From Rhodobiaceae bacterium (lineage in GTDB: Bacteria > Pseudomonadota > Alphaproteobacteria > Rhizobiales > Tepidamorphaceae), in NCBI GenBank assembly GCA_007118805.1, contig SKQW01000204.1, positions 1-33,822 on the forward strand: DNA of 33,822 nucleotides, in the 5' to 3' direction. The notes beneath the pieces are model-generated. The model was given only the letters and a program-made list of their open reading frames with translations. It was not told the origin of the DNA and ran no database searches. Shown here in pieces: positions 15,976-21,936 of this stretch (the first letter of the stretch is position 1; every line of letters begins with the position of its first letter). The position numbers and the translations under genes are program-made.

Positions 15976-16275
15976 GTCTCAAGCTCCGTCGAGCACGCCG
16001 GTGGCGGATCACGGGGAGGCACCGCGTAGCCGCACCAGGATAGTCAGGTCAATTGGCCAGCGCCGTGCGGGCCCGGATGGGGCCTATGCAGAATGTCCTC
16101 CCCTTGTCCCGTTGAATTGGTGGTAGAGGGCTATGTGACCCCGCCCCCATATCCCCCAGGCAAGGAACCGCTTCCCTCGCTTGACATATCTATCGGTAGA
16201 CACAAATATTGCGCGCCGTCCGGGGGCGGACGCGTATCCTGTTACGCGCAGACGAGAGTTTGGATCAGTACATTG
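15976..16275. other. 300-base divergent intergenic region (AEC carrier / hspQ)
   Basis: The ORF track extends a frame leftwards from hspQ to 16093, but that stretch (VEGYVTPPPYPPGKEPLP...) has no recognisable family. Apart from the candidate hspQ promoter and the weak TTGACC on the minus strand I see no gene, repeat or RNA here. Confidence 0.5.
16180..16210 (+). promoter_or_regulatory. Candidate hspQ promoter, possibly heat-shock (RpoH) type
   Basis: CTTGACA then, after about 16-18 bases, CAAATATT. TTGACA is a perfect sigma70 -35, with AATATT 18 bases on as a poor -10. The same bases read as CTTGAC plus CACAAATAT, near the RpoH pattern (CTTGAA...CCCATNT). The leader to the ATG would be about 60 bases. 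Confidence 0.4.
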
Positions 16276-16605
16276 ATGAAGGCACGGAGCGCCAAATACG
16301 CGATCGGCCAGGTAGTCCGTCATCGCTTCTACTCCTTCCGGGGAGTGGTGTTTGACGTTGACCCGACCTTCGACAACACCGACGAATGGTGGCAGTCGAT
16401 TCCGGAGGAGGTCCGCCCGCACAAGGATCAGCCCTTCTATCACCTCTTCGCGGAGAATTCCGAAACGGAGTATATCGCCTACGTTTCGGAGCAGAATCTG
16501 CTGCCAGACGATACCGGAGACCCGGTGCGCCATCCACAGGTGGCGGAGATCTTCGAGGGGGTCGAAGGGGGCATCTACCGCTCGCGGGAAAAGCGCCTCA
16601 ACTGA
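16276..16605 (+). CDS. hspQ: Heat shock protein HspQ (YccV family)
   Basis: A 109-residue cytosolic protein. In enterobacteria HspQ is a heat-induced factor that stimulates Lon-dependent proteolysis. Family motifs: YAIGQVVRHRFYSFRGVVFDVDP near the N-terminus, DEWWQSIP, RPHKDQPFYHLFAEN, then YIAYVSEQNLLPDD and a final HPQVAEIF. Length and motif order match the family. I start at ATG 16276 because conserved HspQ proteins begin a few residues before the A-K-Y-A-x-G segment; the longer frame to 16093 is not homologous. No strong Shine-Dalgarno precedes this ATG, so the start is less sure than the identity. It is convergent with the IalB-family gene. Confidence 0.9.
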   Translation: MKARSAKYAIGQVVRHRFYSFRGVVFDVDPTFDNTDEWWQSIPEEVRPHKDQPFYHLFAENSETEYIAYVSEQNLLPDDTGDPVRHPQVAEIFEGVEGGIYRSREKRLN

Positions 16606-16750: not shown

Positions 16751-17428
16751 CTATTCGGTGGGCGCCGCTTCGCCCCCTTGGCCCCCTTGCTCCTCCAGGA
16801 GGCGCTGACGCGCATCGGCGGCCCGCCGTTGCAGCTCATCCTGCAATTGCTGGCGCTGCTGGGCAAGTTGCTCGGTGTCGATGGGCGGTCCGTCATAGGC
16901 CTTGGTAAAGCCGATCAGGGTAAAGCCCAGCCCACGCTGCTCCCCCTCATGGTCGATCCAGTAGAGGACGAGATTATTGCCGGCTTTCAGCGCATCCACA
17001 TAGTCGCTATCGATCTGCATCTCGCCGTAGCAGGCCTGTGGCAGGCACTGCGTGTAGGTGGCCTGCTCGGGCTCGGCCTCGTCGATCTGAACCGCGAAGC
17101 CGGGCGGCAGGATCGAGCCGATAGGCAGCATGGCTCGCAGGATCTTCTGATCCTCCTCGACCAGCGTCCCGACCGTCACGGCGGCGATGAACTCGCCGGT
17201 ATCGGCCCGCGCCTCCTGGGTGACGAGGCAGACTTCCTGATCCTCCAGCGTCGGCTCTTCGACGCAGACCTTGACCCAGCTACCCAGGTCATCGCCCCCC
17301 TCGGCTTGGGAGGCTTCCTGAGCCTGCGCTTGCATGCCGAATCCCGCCATCGCGAAGGCGCCGGCCGCGAGGAAGACGGAAAGGCGGCGCTTTCTCAATG
17401 CCTGCGCGGAAATCTGTCGAAATTGCAT
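16751..17428 (-). CDS. Invasion-associated locus B (IalB) family periplasmic protein
   Basis: A 225-residue exported protein when started at ATG 17428, behind GGGGACGACCT; the track's upstream 26 residues carry no signal. Residues ~10-37 (KRRLSVFLAAGAFAMAGFGMQAQA) are a signal peptide. The body carries the IalB fold features: SWVKVCVEE, EVCLVTQEARAD, a 'MLPIGSILPPGFAVQID' strand, then YTQCLPQACYGEMQID, with the paired cysteines of the family. The C-terminal ~40 residues are a charged Gln/Glu/Arg-rich coiled coil ending in a Gly/Glu tail. IalB was named for erythrocyte invasion by Bartonella, but the family is widespread in free-living alphaproteobacteria. No pathogenic role should be inferred. 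Its exact function is unknown. Confidence 0.87.
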   Translation of the reverse strand: MQFRQISAQALRKRRLSVFLAAGAFAMAGFGMQAQAQEASQAEGGDDLGSWVKVCVEEPTLEDQEVCLVTQEARADTGEFIAAVTVGTLVEEDQKILRAMLPIGSILPPGFAVQIDEAEPEQATYTQCLPQACYGEMQIDSDYVDALKAGNNLVLYWIDHEGEQRGLGFTLIGFTKAYDGPPIDTEQLAQQRQQLQDELQRRAADARQRLLEEQGGQGGEAAPTE

Positions 17429-17730
17429 AGGTCGTCCCCAAATCCTGTGCCAGATATAGCCTGAATTCTCGGTTGGCAGGCGTCCCCCCGAGCCGTGCCC
17501 GCGCACGCTTGGTCACCGTGAATTGCGGCAACACAATGTCGCGCTGCCACCACCTCGACGGTTGCGCCCACCCTTCGTTACCTCCAAGCCCAGCCTTAAA
17601 TACTCCGCGATTGGAACGCAACATTTCCGGCATTTGGCCCGTCGCGTTCGCTAGCTCCAATCGCGTGACAACATAGCGAGATTGGCCCGCAACTTTCCCA
17701 TCGCGATGGCCTGCGCGGTCGCGAATGTAA
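17429..17730. other. 302-base divergent intergenic region with repeated motifs
   Basis: The gap separates the IalB-family gene from the binding-protein operon. Around 17590-17730 it is richer in A/T than its surroundings and holds the repeat elements listed separately. I see no credible coding frame or RNA gene, and no promoter I would commit to. Confidence 0.5.
17606..17699. repeat. Inverted and direct repeats upstream of the binding-protein operon
   Basis: CGCGATTGGA (17606-17615) and TCCAATCGCG (17656-17665) are perfect 10-base inverted copies 40 bases apart. ATTGGAACGCAACATTTCC (17610-17628) recurs as ATTGGCCCGCAACTTTCCC (17681-17699), with 15 of 19 bases identical. The arrangement suggests a multi-site operator or a looped structure; its regulator is unknown. 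Confidence 0.55.
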
Positions 17731-19638
17731 ATGATGCAGGCTAGAATGGCCGGAGACGAATCGGAGAGCCGTCGGCGGCACATGACAGGTTTCAGCCTCG
17801 CAACCCGGATCCGGCGCCCGTATCGGGCGCCGTTCATTGCCGTCCTTGCGAGCTTGTTGCTGATCTCGCCACAGGCCGTGGCGGCGGATCGGGGGGGTCC
17901 GGATCACGGCATCGCGATGCACGGCGAATTGCTCTATCCGCCGGAATTCGAGCATTTCTCCTATGCTGACCCCGATGCGCCCCAGGGTGGACGGCTGACC
18001 CGCGCCGTCTTGGGCAGCTTCGACAGCCTGAACCCGCTGGTAGTGCGCGGCGTGCCGGCGCGCGGCTTGCGTGAATATGTCTTCGAATCGCTCATGGCGC
18101 GCAGCTTCGACGAACCGTTTTCCCTCTACGGGCTGCTGGCTGAATCGGTCGAGGCGGCCGAAGATCGCAGTTGGGTCGCATTTACCCTCAATCCTGACGC
18201 CCAGTTCTCGGATGGTGAGCCGGTGACCGTCGAGGACGTCGTCTTTTCCTGGGACGTCCTGAGGACAAAGGGGCGCCCCAACCACCGCAACTACTATAAT
18301 CAGGTGAGCGAGGTCGAACAGGTCGGCGAGCGGACGATGCGCTTCACCTTCTCGGGCGAGCCGGACCGCGAGATGCCCCTGATCATGGGGCTGATGCCCA
18401 TCCTGCCATCGCACTACTACGATGCCGACACCTTCGAGCGCAGCGGGCAGACAATGCCGCTGGGCAGCGGACCCTATGTCGTCGATGACGTCTCCTACGG
18501 CTCGACCATCACCTACCGGCGCGATGAGGATTATTGGGGCAACGATTTGCCTGTCACCGCAGGGCATCACAATTTCGAAGAGATCCGCTTCGAGTACTAC
18601 CGGGACGCCAACACGATGTTCGAGGCGTTCCGGACCGGGGCCATCGATGTACGCCCGGAGGACGACCCGACGCGCTGGGCCACGGGTTACGACTTTCCCG
18701 CCGTGCGCAGCGGTGAAATCGTGCTGGATACGTTCGAGACTGGTGTCCCGCGCGGCATGTCGGCGCTGGTGTTCAATACCCGCCGCGCGATCTTTGCCGA
18801 TCGCCGCGTGCGCAATGCCCTGCTCCACCTCTTCGACGCCGATTGGATCAATCGCAATCTGTACTACGAAAACTACGAGCGCACGGTGAGCTATTTCGAG
18901 GGCTCAGAACTGTCGGCGCGCGGCCGTCCGGCAAGCCCGCGTGAGCTCGAAATCCTCGAGCCATGGCGCGACCGGATCGACGATGCGTTTCTCGACGGCA
19001 CCTATGAGCCGCCCGTCTCGGATGGCTCGGGCCGCGACCGGCGCAACATGCGCGCCGCGCTGGCCCTGCTGGCGGAGGCCGGTTGGCAGCTTGACGGCGG
19101 CAAACTGCACAATGTGGACACCGGAGAGCCCTTCACCTTCGAGATCCTGGTCGCCACGCGCGATCATGAGCGCCTGGCGTTGGCCTATTCGCAAAGCCTG
19201 GAACGGGCCGGCATTCAGGTCAGCGTCCGGCAGGTCGACTCGGCGCAGTTCGAGCGCCGCCGCCAGGTCTACGATTACGACATGATCCCCAATTTCTGGT
19301 TCGCCTCGCTGTCACCGGGCAACGAGCAGCGCTTCTATTGGGGCAGCGATGCGGCGGAGACCGAGGGGACCCGAAACTACATGGGCGTGGCCGATCCCGC
19401 CGTCGATGCGGCGATTGATGCGTTGCTTGCCGCGGAGGAACGCGAAACCTTCATTGACGCCGTCCGCGCCCTCGACCGGGCGCTGATGTCAGGCCTTTAT
19501 GTCGTGCCGCTGTTCCATTTGCCGGAGCAATGGGTGGCGCGTTGGGCGCATGTGGGTCGGCCCGAAGAGGACTCGCTCTACGGCTATGTGATCGAGAGTT
19601 GGTGGCGCGTGCCCGACGGCCAGGCCGCGCAGCAATAG
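17731..19638 (+). CDS. YejA-like extracellular solute-binding protein, family 5
   Basis: Periplasmic binding protein of the oligopeptide/YejA class, 635 residues in the longest frame. A signal peptide (YRAPFIAVLASLLLISPQAVAA) is followed by 'HGIAMHGELLYPPEFEHFSYADPDAPQGG' and 'GSFDSLNPLVVRG'. This N-terminal signature belongs to the microcin C/oligopeptide receptor subgroup. Further family segments include GLLAESVEAAEDRSWVAFTL, SDGEPVTVEDVVFSWDVL and the closing HLPEQWVARW. The start is uncertain: 17731, 17746 and 17782 (MTGFSLATRIRR) are all possible, the last giving the most normal signal peptide. No permease or ATPase genes are adjacent, so it either serves a distant transporter or acts alone. 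The next gene begins 12 bases after its stop. Confidence 0.88.
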   Translation: MMQARMAGDESESRRRHMTGFSLATRIRRPYRAPFIAVLASLLLISPQAVAADRGGPDHGIAMHGELLYPPEFEHFSYADPDAPQGGRLTRAVLGSFDSLNPLVVRGVPARGLREYVFESLMARSFDEPFSLYGLLAESVEAAEDRSWVAFTLNPDAQFSDGEPVTVEDVVFSWDVLRTKGRPNHRNYYNQVSEVEQVGERTMRFTFSGEPDREMPLIMGLMPILPSHYYDADTFERSGQTMPLGSGPYVVDDVSYGSTITYRRDEDYWGNDLPVTAGHHNFEEIRFEYYRDANTMFEAFRTGAIDVRPEDDPTRWATGYDFPAVRSGEIVLDTFETGVPRGMSALVFNTRRAIFADRRVRNALLHLFDADWINRNLYYENYERTVSYFEGSELSARGRPASPRELEILEPWRDRIDDAFLDGTYEPPVSDGSGRDRRNMRAALALLAEAGWQLDGGKLHNVDTGEPFTFEILVATRDHERLALAYSQSLERAGIQVSVRQVDSAQFERRRQVYDYDMIPNFWFASLSPGNEQRFYWGSDAAETEGTRNYMGVADPAVDAAIDALLAAEERETFIDAVRALDRALMSGLYVVPLFHLPEQWVARWAHVGRPEEDSLYGYVIESWWRVPDGQAAQQ

Positions 19639-19649
19639 AAAGGGGCAAC

Positions 19650-21269
19650 GTGATCCTCGCCGACCCGACGGAGATCGCACACTACGCTCGCGACGGGCTG
19701 TGGGGCCGGGTAACTCTGGACGGTCTGCTCTCGCGCAACGCGGCGTCCCGGCCATTGGACCTCGCCCTTGACGATGTCTCGGCGCGCGCCCAGGCCGATA
19801 GCGGGCAGTCCGGGTTGACCTGGGGGGAGCTTGATGCCCGGGTCTCGCGGCTTGCGGTGTTTTTCGCCGAGTTGGGTCTGCGCCCCGACGAGTCGATCGG
19901 CATCCAGCTTGCCAACACGGCAGAGGCCGTCATCGCGCACCTCGCCGCCTTGCGCGCTGGCCTCATTCCCCTCGCCCTTCCCTGCCTCTGGCAACGGGCG
20001 GCCCTCACCGAAGCCGCGCAGCGCCTTGCCCCCGTTGCCCTGATAACCAGCAGCACCATTGGCCCAGCCCGGCAGGCCGATACCATGCGCGAAGTCGCTG
20101 CGGACAGCGTGTCCGTGCGCTTCGTCCTTGGTTTCGGTGAGGCGGTCCCGGATGGGGTCCACTCGCTCGACGAGGTCATGGCCATGCCGCTAACGACCGA
20201 GGGCGCGGCTGTCGAGCGCGAAGACAATCCCGCCGATCACGTTGCCATGGTGACCTTCGATACGGCCACGCGCGCGCCGGCGCCGGTCGCCCGCAGCCAT
20301 AACCAGTGGCTGGCGGCGGCGACCGCCTGCGTCGGCGCGGCACGCCTGGGACATCACGCCGCGCTTGCGACAACGATGATGCCCACAACGCTTGCCGGCT
20401 TGGCGACCGGCTTGGCGAGTTGGCTGCTCGCCGGCTGCCGCCTCGTCCTCGTGATGCCGGACCACATCGACGCAATTGACAGCAAGGAGGTTACGCATCT
20501 CGTCCTGCCGGGCCCGGCCGCGATGCACCTCAAGTCGCAAGGCCACGCGCCGCCGGTGAAGACGCTGCGCGTGTGGCGCGGCGGCGCTGCCTTGATTGCA
20601 ACGCCGGACCCAGAGGCCATCGACATCCTGTCGCTTGGCGAACTGGCGATCTGGTCCGGCAAGCGCGGTTTGACCATCCCTCTTGCCGGCGAGGACGTGG
20701 ACGAACCCCTGGCCGAACTCCTCAAGGCACGCATGCAGGGTTTGTCCCAGAAGGCGGCGGACTGCGACCAGCCGGGCGCCATGCTGCGGGGAACGCTCTC
20801 GGTCGCCGGGCCACAGCTTCCCGGTCGGCCGTTTCCGGGGGGCGACGACCAGGCCGATGGCGAAGAGAGCGCCGATCCGGACGGCTTCCGGCCGACCGGG
20901 CTACGCTGCAGCCTGACCGGCACCAGCCCGGCGGTGGTTCGCATCATCGGCTATGCCGGCGAGGTGTTCGCCCGCGGCGGCATTGCCGTGGCCGCCGAGG
21001 CGGTCGATGCGCTGTATGCTGACTGTCCGGGGGTTGCCGATGCGGCGGTGGTGCCGGTGCCGGACCCGCTGCTGGGCACGCGCTTTCACGCCGCCGTGGT
21101 CGAGCAGAGCGAAGGCGCCTGCACGCTCGAAGCCTTCCGGGCGCATCTGGCCGAGTTGGGCGCCGCGCCATATCTGCTCCCCGACGCCGTCATCAAGGTC
21201 GACAGCATTCCGCGCGGACAGAACGGGCGCACCTTGCGCAGCGTGCTCGAAACGCAGGCGGCCGCCTGA
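19650..21269 (+). CDS. Adenylate-forming (AMP-binding) superfamily protein with degenerate active site
   Basis: I start at GTG 19650, behind AAAGGGG; the track start at 19530 lies inside the upstream gene. The 539 residues have the acyl-CoA ligase layout: ALDDVSARAQADSG...TWGELDARVSRLAVFFAELGLRPDESIGIQLANT at the N-terminus and a small C-terminal domain from about residue 434. The catalytic motifs are eroded. The A3 P-loop (normally S/T-S-G-T-T-G-x-P-K-G) reads TFDTATRAPAPVA at 202-214. The ribose-binding TGD reads TGL at 416-418. The hinge GR reads GY at 434-435. The A10 lysine is Arg527 in PRGQNGRTLR. The frame is intact over 1.6 kb, so it is maintained, but probably not as an ordinary ligase. 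It is co-transcribed with its neighbours. Confidence 0.8.
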   Translation: MILADPTEIAHYARDGLWGRVTLDGLLSRNAASRPLDLALDDVSARAQADSGQSGLTWGELDARVSRLAVFFAELGLRPDESIGIQLANTAEAVIAHLAALRAGLIPLALPCLWQRAALTEAAQRLAPVALITSSTIGPARQADTMREVAADSVSVRFVLGFGEAVPDGVHSLDEVMAMPLTTEGAAVEREDNPADHVAMVTFDTATRAPAPVARSHNQWLAAATACVGAARLGHHAALATTMMPTTLAGLATGLASWLLAGCRLVLVMPDHIDAIDSKEVTHLVLPGPAAMHLKSQGHAPPVKTLRVWRGGAALIATPDPEAIDILSLGELAIWSGKRGLTIPLAGEDVDEPLAELLKARMQGLSQKAADCDQPGAMLRGTLSVAGPQLPGRPFPGGDDQADGEESADPDGFRPTGLRCSLTGTSPAVVRIIGYAGEVFARGGIAVAAEAVDALYADCPGVADAAVVPVPDPLLGTRFHAAVVEQSEGACTLEAFRAHLAELGAAPYLLPDAVIKVDSIPRGQNGRTLRSVLETQAAA

Positions 21270-21285: not shown

Positions 21286-21936
21286 ATGGACCATAAGATC
21301 ACCCTCGACATCATTTCCGACACGATCTGCCCCTGGTGCTTCATCGGCAAGCGCCGGCTGGAAGCCGCGCTGGAGATGCGGCCCGATCTCGATATCGACA
21401 TCCGGTGGCGCGCCTACCAGCTCAACCCTGACATGCCCAAGGAAGGCATGGACCGGCGCGCCTATCTGGAGCGCAAATTCGGCCCGGACGGCGCCGAGGG
21501 CGTCTATCAGCGCATCTCCGAGGCCGGCCGGCAGGCCGGGCTTGCGTTCGCGCTGGAACGCATCGAGCGGACCCCGAGCACGACCGATTCACACCGCCTG
21601 ATCCGCTGGGCGGCGACCGCCGGGGTCCAGAACGAGGTAGTGGAGGCCCTGTTCACCGCCTATTTCATGGAGGGCCGCGACATCAGCGACCCGGCGGTGC
21701 TCACCGAGATCGCCGCGGCCACCGGCATGGATCGCGCGCGCACAAGCGAGCTCCTGGACAGCGATGCCGATGTCGAATTGATCCGCGAAGAGGTTCGGCT
21801 GGCCAGCGAGATGGGCGTCACTGGCGTTCCCTGCTTCATCTTCGACAACCGCTTCGCCGTGATGGGCGCCCAGGCGCCGGAGACCCTCGTCGAGGCGTTG
21901 GACCGCGTCCGGTCCGAGGCGGCCGCCGCCGGCTAA
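21286..21936 (+). CDS. FrnE/DsbA-family thiol oxidoreductase
   Basis: A 216-residue thioredoxin-fold protein with an inserted helical domain. The active site is CPWC in IISDTICPWCFIGKRRLEAAL, the classic FrnE motif, and the cis-proline is in MGVTGVPCFIFDN, which also holds a third cysteine. No signal peptide is present, so it should be cytosolic, unlike DsbA itself. FrnE homologues act as disulphide isomerases, some tied to oxidative or metal stress; close relatives include 2-hydroxychromene-2-carboxylate isomerase, which uses glutathione and lacks CxxC. ATG 21286 follows AGGAG at eight bases, 17 bases after the upstream stop, so it completes the three-gene operon. Its 3' end lies five bases from that of convergent mfd. 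Confidence 0.9.
   Translation: MDHKITLDIISDTICPWCFIGKRRLEAALEMRPDLDIDIRWRAYQLNPDMPKEGMDRRAYLERKFGPDGAEGVYQRISEAGRQAGLAFALERIERTPSTTDSHRLIRWAATAGVQNEVVEALFTAYFMEGRDISDPAVLTEIAAATGMDRARTSELLDSDADVELIREEVRLASEMGVTGVPCFIFDNRFAVMGAQAPETLVEALDRVRSEAAAAG

Follow-up and report, generated by a model that had tools for sequence, protein, structure and literature searches.

A degenerate ANL-fold protein encoded in a probable yepA locus of Rhizobiales: evidence for an ancient, selected pseudoenzyme family

We analysed a 33,822-nt stretch of DNA from a Rhodobiaceae bacterium (contig SKQW01000204.1, hereafter the window), which encodes a degenerate class I adenylate-forming (ANL) homologue of 539 residues, here designated dANL. 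The loss of the catalytic motifs within one clade, the purifying selection on the gene in relatives and the confidently predicted fold together give good support to the view that dANL represents an ancient, selected, non-adenylating ANL-fold pseudoenzyme family. Its gene lies directly downstream of a gene for a binding protein that is most probably YepA, and dANL may well act, with about an even chance, in muropeptide recycling as a cytosolic protein that binds or regulates without adenylating.

Catalytic motifs and predicted fold of dANL

The gene and the sites discussed below are as follows.

19650..21269 (+): dANL, degenerate class I adenylate-forming (ANL) protein of 539 aa with a GTG start (from Pfam, orthologues and AlphaFold)
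20253..20291 (+): position of the A3 P-loop, residues 202–214, TFDTATRAPAPVA; the canonical sister has CWTSGTEAxPKGVPR (from the alignment)
20292..20303 (+): RSHN, residues 215–218, immediately 3' of the lost P-loop; retained by the majority of orthologues, with RTHN as its counterpart in EntE
20640..20642 (+): Glu331, at the aligned position of the A5 Glu
20895..20903 (+): A7 motif, residues 416–418, TGD changed to TGL
20949..20954 (+): A8 hinge, residues 434–435, GR changed to GY
21228..21230 (+): Arg527, at the position of the A10 Lys

The reading frame of 539 codons, described as open in the first-pass annotation, runs uninterrupted from 19650 to 21269 on the forward strand. Its GTG start is preceded by AAAGGGG, which resembles a ribosome-binding site, and orthologues have ATG (MIL...) at the equivalent position, which supports the assigned start. 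The GC3 value is 0.82, and the codon-position composition resembles that of the neighbouring genes. The Pfam models AMP-binding (E 1e-21) and AMP-binding_C (E 7.7e-9) both matched dANL beyond their cut-offs, and these domains together with the two-domain fold place it in the ANL superfamily by fold and homology.

The canonical A3 P-loop of adenylating enzymes follows the pattern [ST][SG]GTT..PK; in ANL enzymes the A7 Asp contacts the ribose hydroxyls and the A10 Lys is catalytic. The window dANL has none of the A3 P-loop, the A7 Asp, the A8 Gly-Arg and the A10 Lys. The proposal that these four motifs had changed together thus held at residues 202–214, 416–418, 434–435 and 527, and the A5 aromatic-Gly pair, a loss not listed in the first-pass annotation, has also gone, the A5 Glu being retained as E331.

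The same losses were found throughout the order. dANL was present in 7 of the 8 family genomes searched, the window's own included, and the aligned copies have the same losses. The canonical motif set occurred in none of the 54 distinct orthologues read, which come from dozens of families of the order. Among the 45 that were aligned, the A7 Asp was never found, its replacement being mostly Leu, Ile or Val; the P-loop Lys was kept in 2, the A5 Gly in 1 and the A10 Lys in 3. The A8 Arg was present in 10 of the 45, a figure that is less sure because the A8 region aligns poorly. The same residues were present in all seven members of the canonical comparison set (7/7). Alignment of homologues, suggested earlier as a check, therefore gave motif changes common to the whole clade, and as judged from the aligned residues these changes exceed chance or a local artefact. 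Searching genome contigs with dANL alone as the query yielded a single weak match, from an actinobacterium. The order-wide extent of the motif loss and the link to a muropeptide importer described below were both absent from the first-pass annotation.

The AlphaFold model of dANL, built with the 45-sequence alignment, had a pLDDT of 90.7 and a pTM of 0.92, so that the structural modelling also proposed earlier yielded a confident two-domain, EntE-like fold. The best PDB matches of the model were CahJ and EntE (TM about 0.8). The aryl-acid adenylating enzymes EntE, DhbE and CahJ are likewise the best family-model and PDB sequence matches of dANL and have in common with it the [S/T]HN that follows the P-loop. 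Unlike these enzymes, dANL has lost the A3, A7, A8 and A10 motifs and the A5 aromatic-Gly pair, and it is not a member of their group by function. A siderophore or aryl-acid pathway was rejected, as no such genes lie nearby. The confidence of the fold is silent on the activity of dANL.

We considered whether the remaining pocket might carry out adenylation-free catalysis, such as CoA- or acyl-transfer or thioester hydrolysis. The A5 Glu is kept in 32 of the 45 aligned orthologues despite the loss of the aromatic-Gly pair and the A7 Thr in 40, most dANL proteins have retained both domains, and the modelled structure is similar to the thioester-forming arrangement, fitting 3cw9 better than 1t5d. 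However, no new conserved catalytic set is present, the conserved positions are mostly scaffold residues, and three families include members without the C-terminal domain, which forms part of the CoA site. Altered chemistry of this kind is distinctly unlikely. A conserved ligand pocket did not emerge from the conserved positions of dANL either.

In families f12 and f42 and in some f50 genomes, the dANL gene ends at about 435–463 codons, before the C-terminal domain, and the persistence of these forms suggests that dANL can do without the catalytic C-terminal half. At four loci (L112, L113, L114 and L124) such forms have about 435–450 aa, and at two of them (L114 and L124) yepA is absent and the shortened dANL adjoins the IalB-domain gene.

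Phylogeny and selection

In the maximum-likelihood tree, the degenerate sequences formed one clade (SH-aLRT 100). Its sisters (SH-aLRT 100) were L090, L091 and a Cupriavidus enzyme, all of them canonical and from outside the order, and a class-level profile search gave two strong matches outside the order, which were again the canonical L090 and L091. The simplest history is therefore a single ancient loss of activity. These nearest tree relatives, class I adenylate-forming enzymes of the WP_078201890.1 type, differ from dANL in carrying the canonical TSGTE..PKG, FGS.EG, GDL, GRxKD/GRKRE and Lys, and the Cupriavidus enzyme, unlike dANL, adjoins genes for a nitronate monooxygenase, a hydrolase and a carotenoid oxygenase.

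We compared unsaturated close pairs of dANL genes among the relatives, since the window gene itself has no sufficiently close relative, and obtained dN/dS values of 0.05–0.17, near the value for the adjacent binding-protein gene. The branch of the window dANL is no longer than those of its sisters. These values, with the clade-wide losses, support the earlier suggestion of selection for another role rather than decay. Two observations had been named that would speak for decay, canonical relatives in the same neighbourhood and relaxed selection. The canonical ANL found in that neighbourhood in other genomes (cANL) belongs to a different deep clade and no dANL orthologue is canonical, and the close pairs show no relaxation.

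A dying adenylating enzyme is therefore an extremely improbable reading of the window copy. The loss of the catalytic motifs and the one family member without dANL at the locus are what decay would predict, but all orthologues share the losses, their frames are open, the window branch is not long and the structure model is confident. Order-wide conservation has largely refuted decay already, and decay or a sequencing artefact was rejected on that conservation and the dN/dS values.

dANL-type genes match the AMP-binding models and would be annotated as adenylate-forming enzymes; judging from the motif losses, such an annotation is probably mistaken in about half of the genomes of the order.

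The probable yepA locus and the position of dANL

The genes that adjoin dANL in the window are as follows.

16751..17506 (-): RgsG-type protein with an IalB domain, its gene divergent from yepA
17731..19638 (+): YepA-type orphan periplasmic binding protein (SBP_bac_5), whose stop lies 11 bp before the dANL start and whose start codon may be slightly downstream
21286..21936 (+): DsbA-like protein of 216 aa, beginning 16 bp after the dANL stop, the counterpart of the Atu1775-type neighbour of yepA

In all of the 40 loci compared (40/40), a family-5 binding-protein gene lies directly upstream of dANL on the same strand, with a median gap of 25 bp and a 4-bp overlap in 7 of the 40. In most dANL loci a divergent IalB-domain gene lies further upstream, and the DsbA-like gene, mfd and recG lie downstream. 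This binding protein belongs to the YejA type, and yejABEF is on another contig of the window genome. Work on Agrobacterium (PMC9790009) showed that YepA, a paralogue of YejA whose gene lies apart from yejBEF, binds muropeptides for the YejBEF importer; it also noted the conserved position of yepA next to genes for a cytoplasmic DsbA-like protein and for RgsG, which carries an IalB domain (PMC7327166). The window protein is likewise a YejA paralogue encoded away from yejBEF and adjoining RgsG-type and DsbA-like genes. Its YejA type, the published setting of yepA and the presence of yejABEF elsewhere point, as far as sequence and gene order can tell, to its being most probably YepA.

The place of dANL, between yepA and the DsbA-like gene, is new. 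The Agrobacterium locus (Atu1774/Atu1775) has the same RgsG-type, YepA-type and DsbA-like arrangement with yejABEF elsewhere, but the part of PMC9790009 drawn on here names no adenylate-forming protein in it and leaves the neighbours of yepA without an assigned function. Limited literature searches turned up no paper on the dANL family and nothing pertinent on an ANL pseudoenzyme at such a locus. The YepA muropeptide-import locus gains a conserved member from this analysis, as well as a naturally occurring replacement of YepA by AmpG in one and the same slot.

States of the locus across the order and the role of dANL

We compared the positions of these genes by hand in 249 genomes of the order, and the resulting counts of arrangements depend on the E-value limits and on incomplete assemblies. 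A YepA-type binding protein was found in 242 of the 249 genomes at E 1e-90, some of which have YejA only. dANL was found at 269 bits or more in 122 of the 249 by hand count, and families f42 and f51 have additional shorter or divergent forms beyond these. Four arrangements were seen: yepA-dANL, yepA-dANL-cANL, yepA-cANL, and yepA without either ANL, where the DsbA-like gene or other genes come next. In about half of the genomes, that of the family member G003 included, YepA occurs but no dANL can be recognised, which indicates that recycling does not require dANL.

cANL is a canonical ANL of about 520 aa that matched long-chain and benzoate-CoA-ligase models below their cut-offs, and it lies directly 3' of dANL or yepA in many genomes (L056, L057, L065, L105 and others). 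Because the two occupy separate deep clades in the tree, dANL as a recent duplicate of the neighbouring cANL was rejected. dANL might be an activating or scaffolding subunit of the downstream cANL in some relatives, since the hand comparison shows a fixed yepA-dANL-cANL order in about 22 of the 249 genomes, and yepA is followed by cANL alone in about 21 more. This partnership is nevertheless very unlikely: a locus cANL is missing from most dANL genomes, the window's included, no clear orthologue of cANL occurs anywhere in the window genome, and the two proteins are of different deep descent. An obligate dANL-cANL pair was rejected on the absence of a locus cANL from most dANL genomes.

AmpG is a muropeptide transporter unrelated to YepA. 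In G125, G153 and G199 (loci L128, L129 and L134), YepA is missing and an AmpG-family gene lies between the IalB gene and dANL, oriented opposite to (divergent from) dANL; G056 and G092 of the same genus (loci L115 and L138) have YepA in the slot. The AmpG neighbours scored 432–438 bits with TIGR00901, above the curated cut-off of 350, and fell below the stricter AmpG equivalog cut-offs. In families f42 and f51, dANL adjoins the IalB gene with no importer between them. The f51 genomes (loci L135–L137) retain dANL beside rgsG and have neither a YepA-type protein at E 1e-90 nor any match to AmpG. No co-variation of AmpG presence with dANL presence was seen across the order. dANL as a strict partner of YepA is unsupported, since f42 and f51 retain it without YepA.

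The exchange of YepA for AmpG favours a recycling role of dANL, and it makes such a role directly testable. The f51 case and the many YepA genomes without dANL point to an accessory role only, or to another function tied to rgsG. In keeping with the latter, dANL could be a selected pseudoenzyme acting in RgsG-dependent or polar growth or elsewhere, its adjacency to the importer being inherited gene order. The block of hspQ-like, rgsG, yepA, dANL, dsbA-like, mfd and recG genes is syntenic across the order, housekeeping genes included, and dANL remains beside rgsG in f42 and f51 where YepA is gone. On the other side, dANL runs in the same direction as yepA and close to it, the two genes overlapping at their ends in some loci, whereas rgsG is divergent, and gene order alone poorly explains an AmpG gene in the YepA slot of three genomes. 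We regard inherited linkage as somewhat unlikely.

The explanation given at the outset, that dANL has a cytosolic binding or regulatory part in muropeptide recycling, draws on the fixed position of dANL in the block of rgsG, muropeptide importer, dsbA-like gene and mfd, and on its orientation along yepA at a spacing close enough for a single transcript. dANL would be cytosolic, having no signal peptide as judged by eye, and would be unable to adenylate. Its large N-terminal domain may have been kept because a cytosolic product or partner of muropeptide import and recycling binds or docks there, and the protein would serve as a sensor, a carrier or an adaptor in tuning import or subsequent handling, rather than as a ligase. 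Since many relatives have no dANL, it would form an accessory, lineage-dependent layer of recycling. It counts against this explanation that most members keep the C-terminal domain, which would be superfluous for a bare N-domain binder, and that the conserved positions are largely scaffold and outline no ligand pocket. The more specific version, in which dANL, as a sensor or adaptor in the cytosol, would bind muropeptides, their stem peptides or the importer ATPase and adjust import or fate, is unlikely as it stands; if true, a ligase fold would have been repurposed as a control protein of cell-wall recycling and kept through the exchange of the YepA and AmpG importers.

Two further genes of the locus were noted. 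Among the small genes of the block, a YccV-like (HspQ) gene near the IalB gene (16093–16605, +) is the best conserved, with about 54–81% identity across the order. A response-regulator/GGDEF protein of about 450 aa is encoded downstream of dANL in 22 of the 40 loci (L040, L051 and L068 among them), and its GGDEF signature looks degenerate in L040 and L051, which makes it a possible second pseudoenzyme in the locus.
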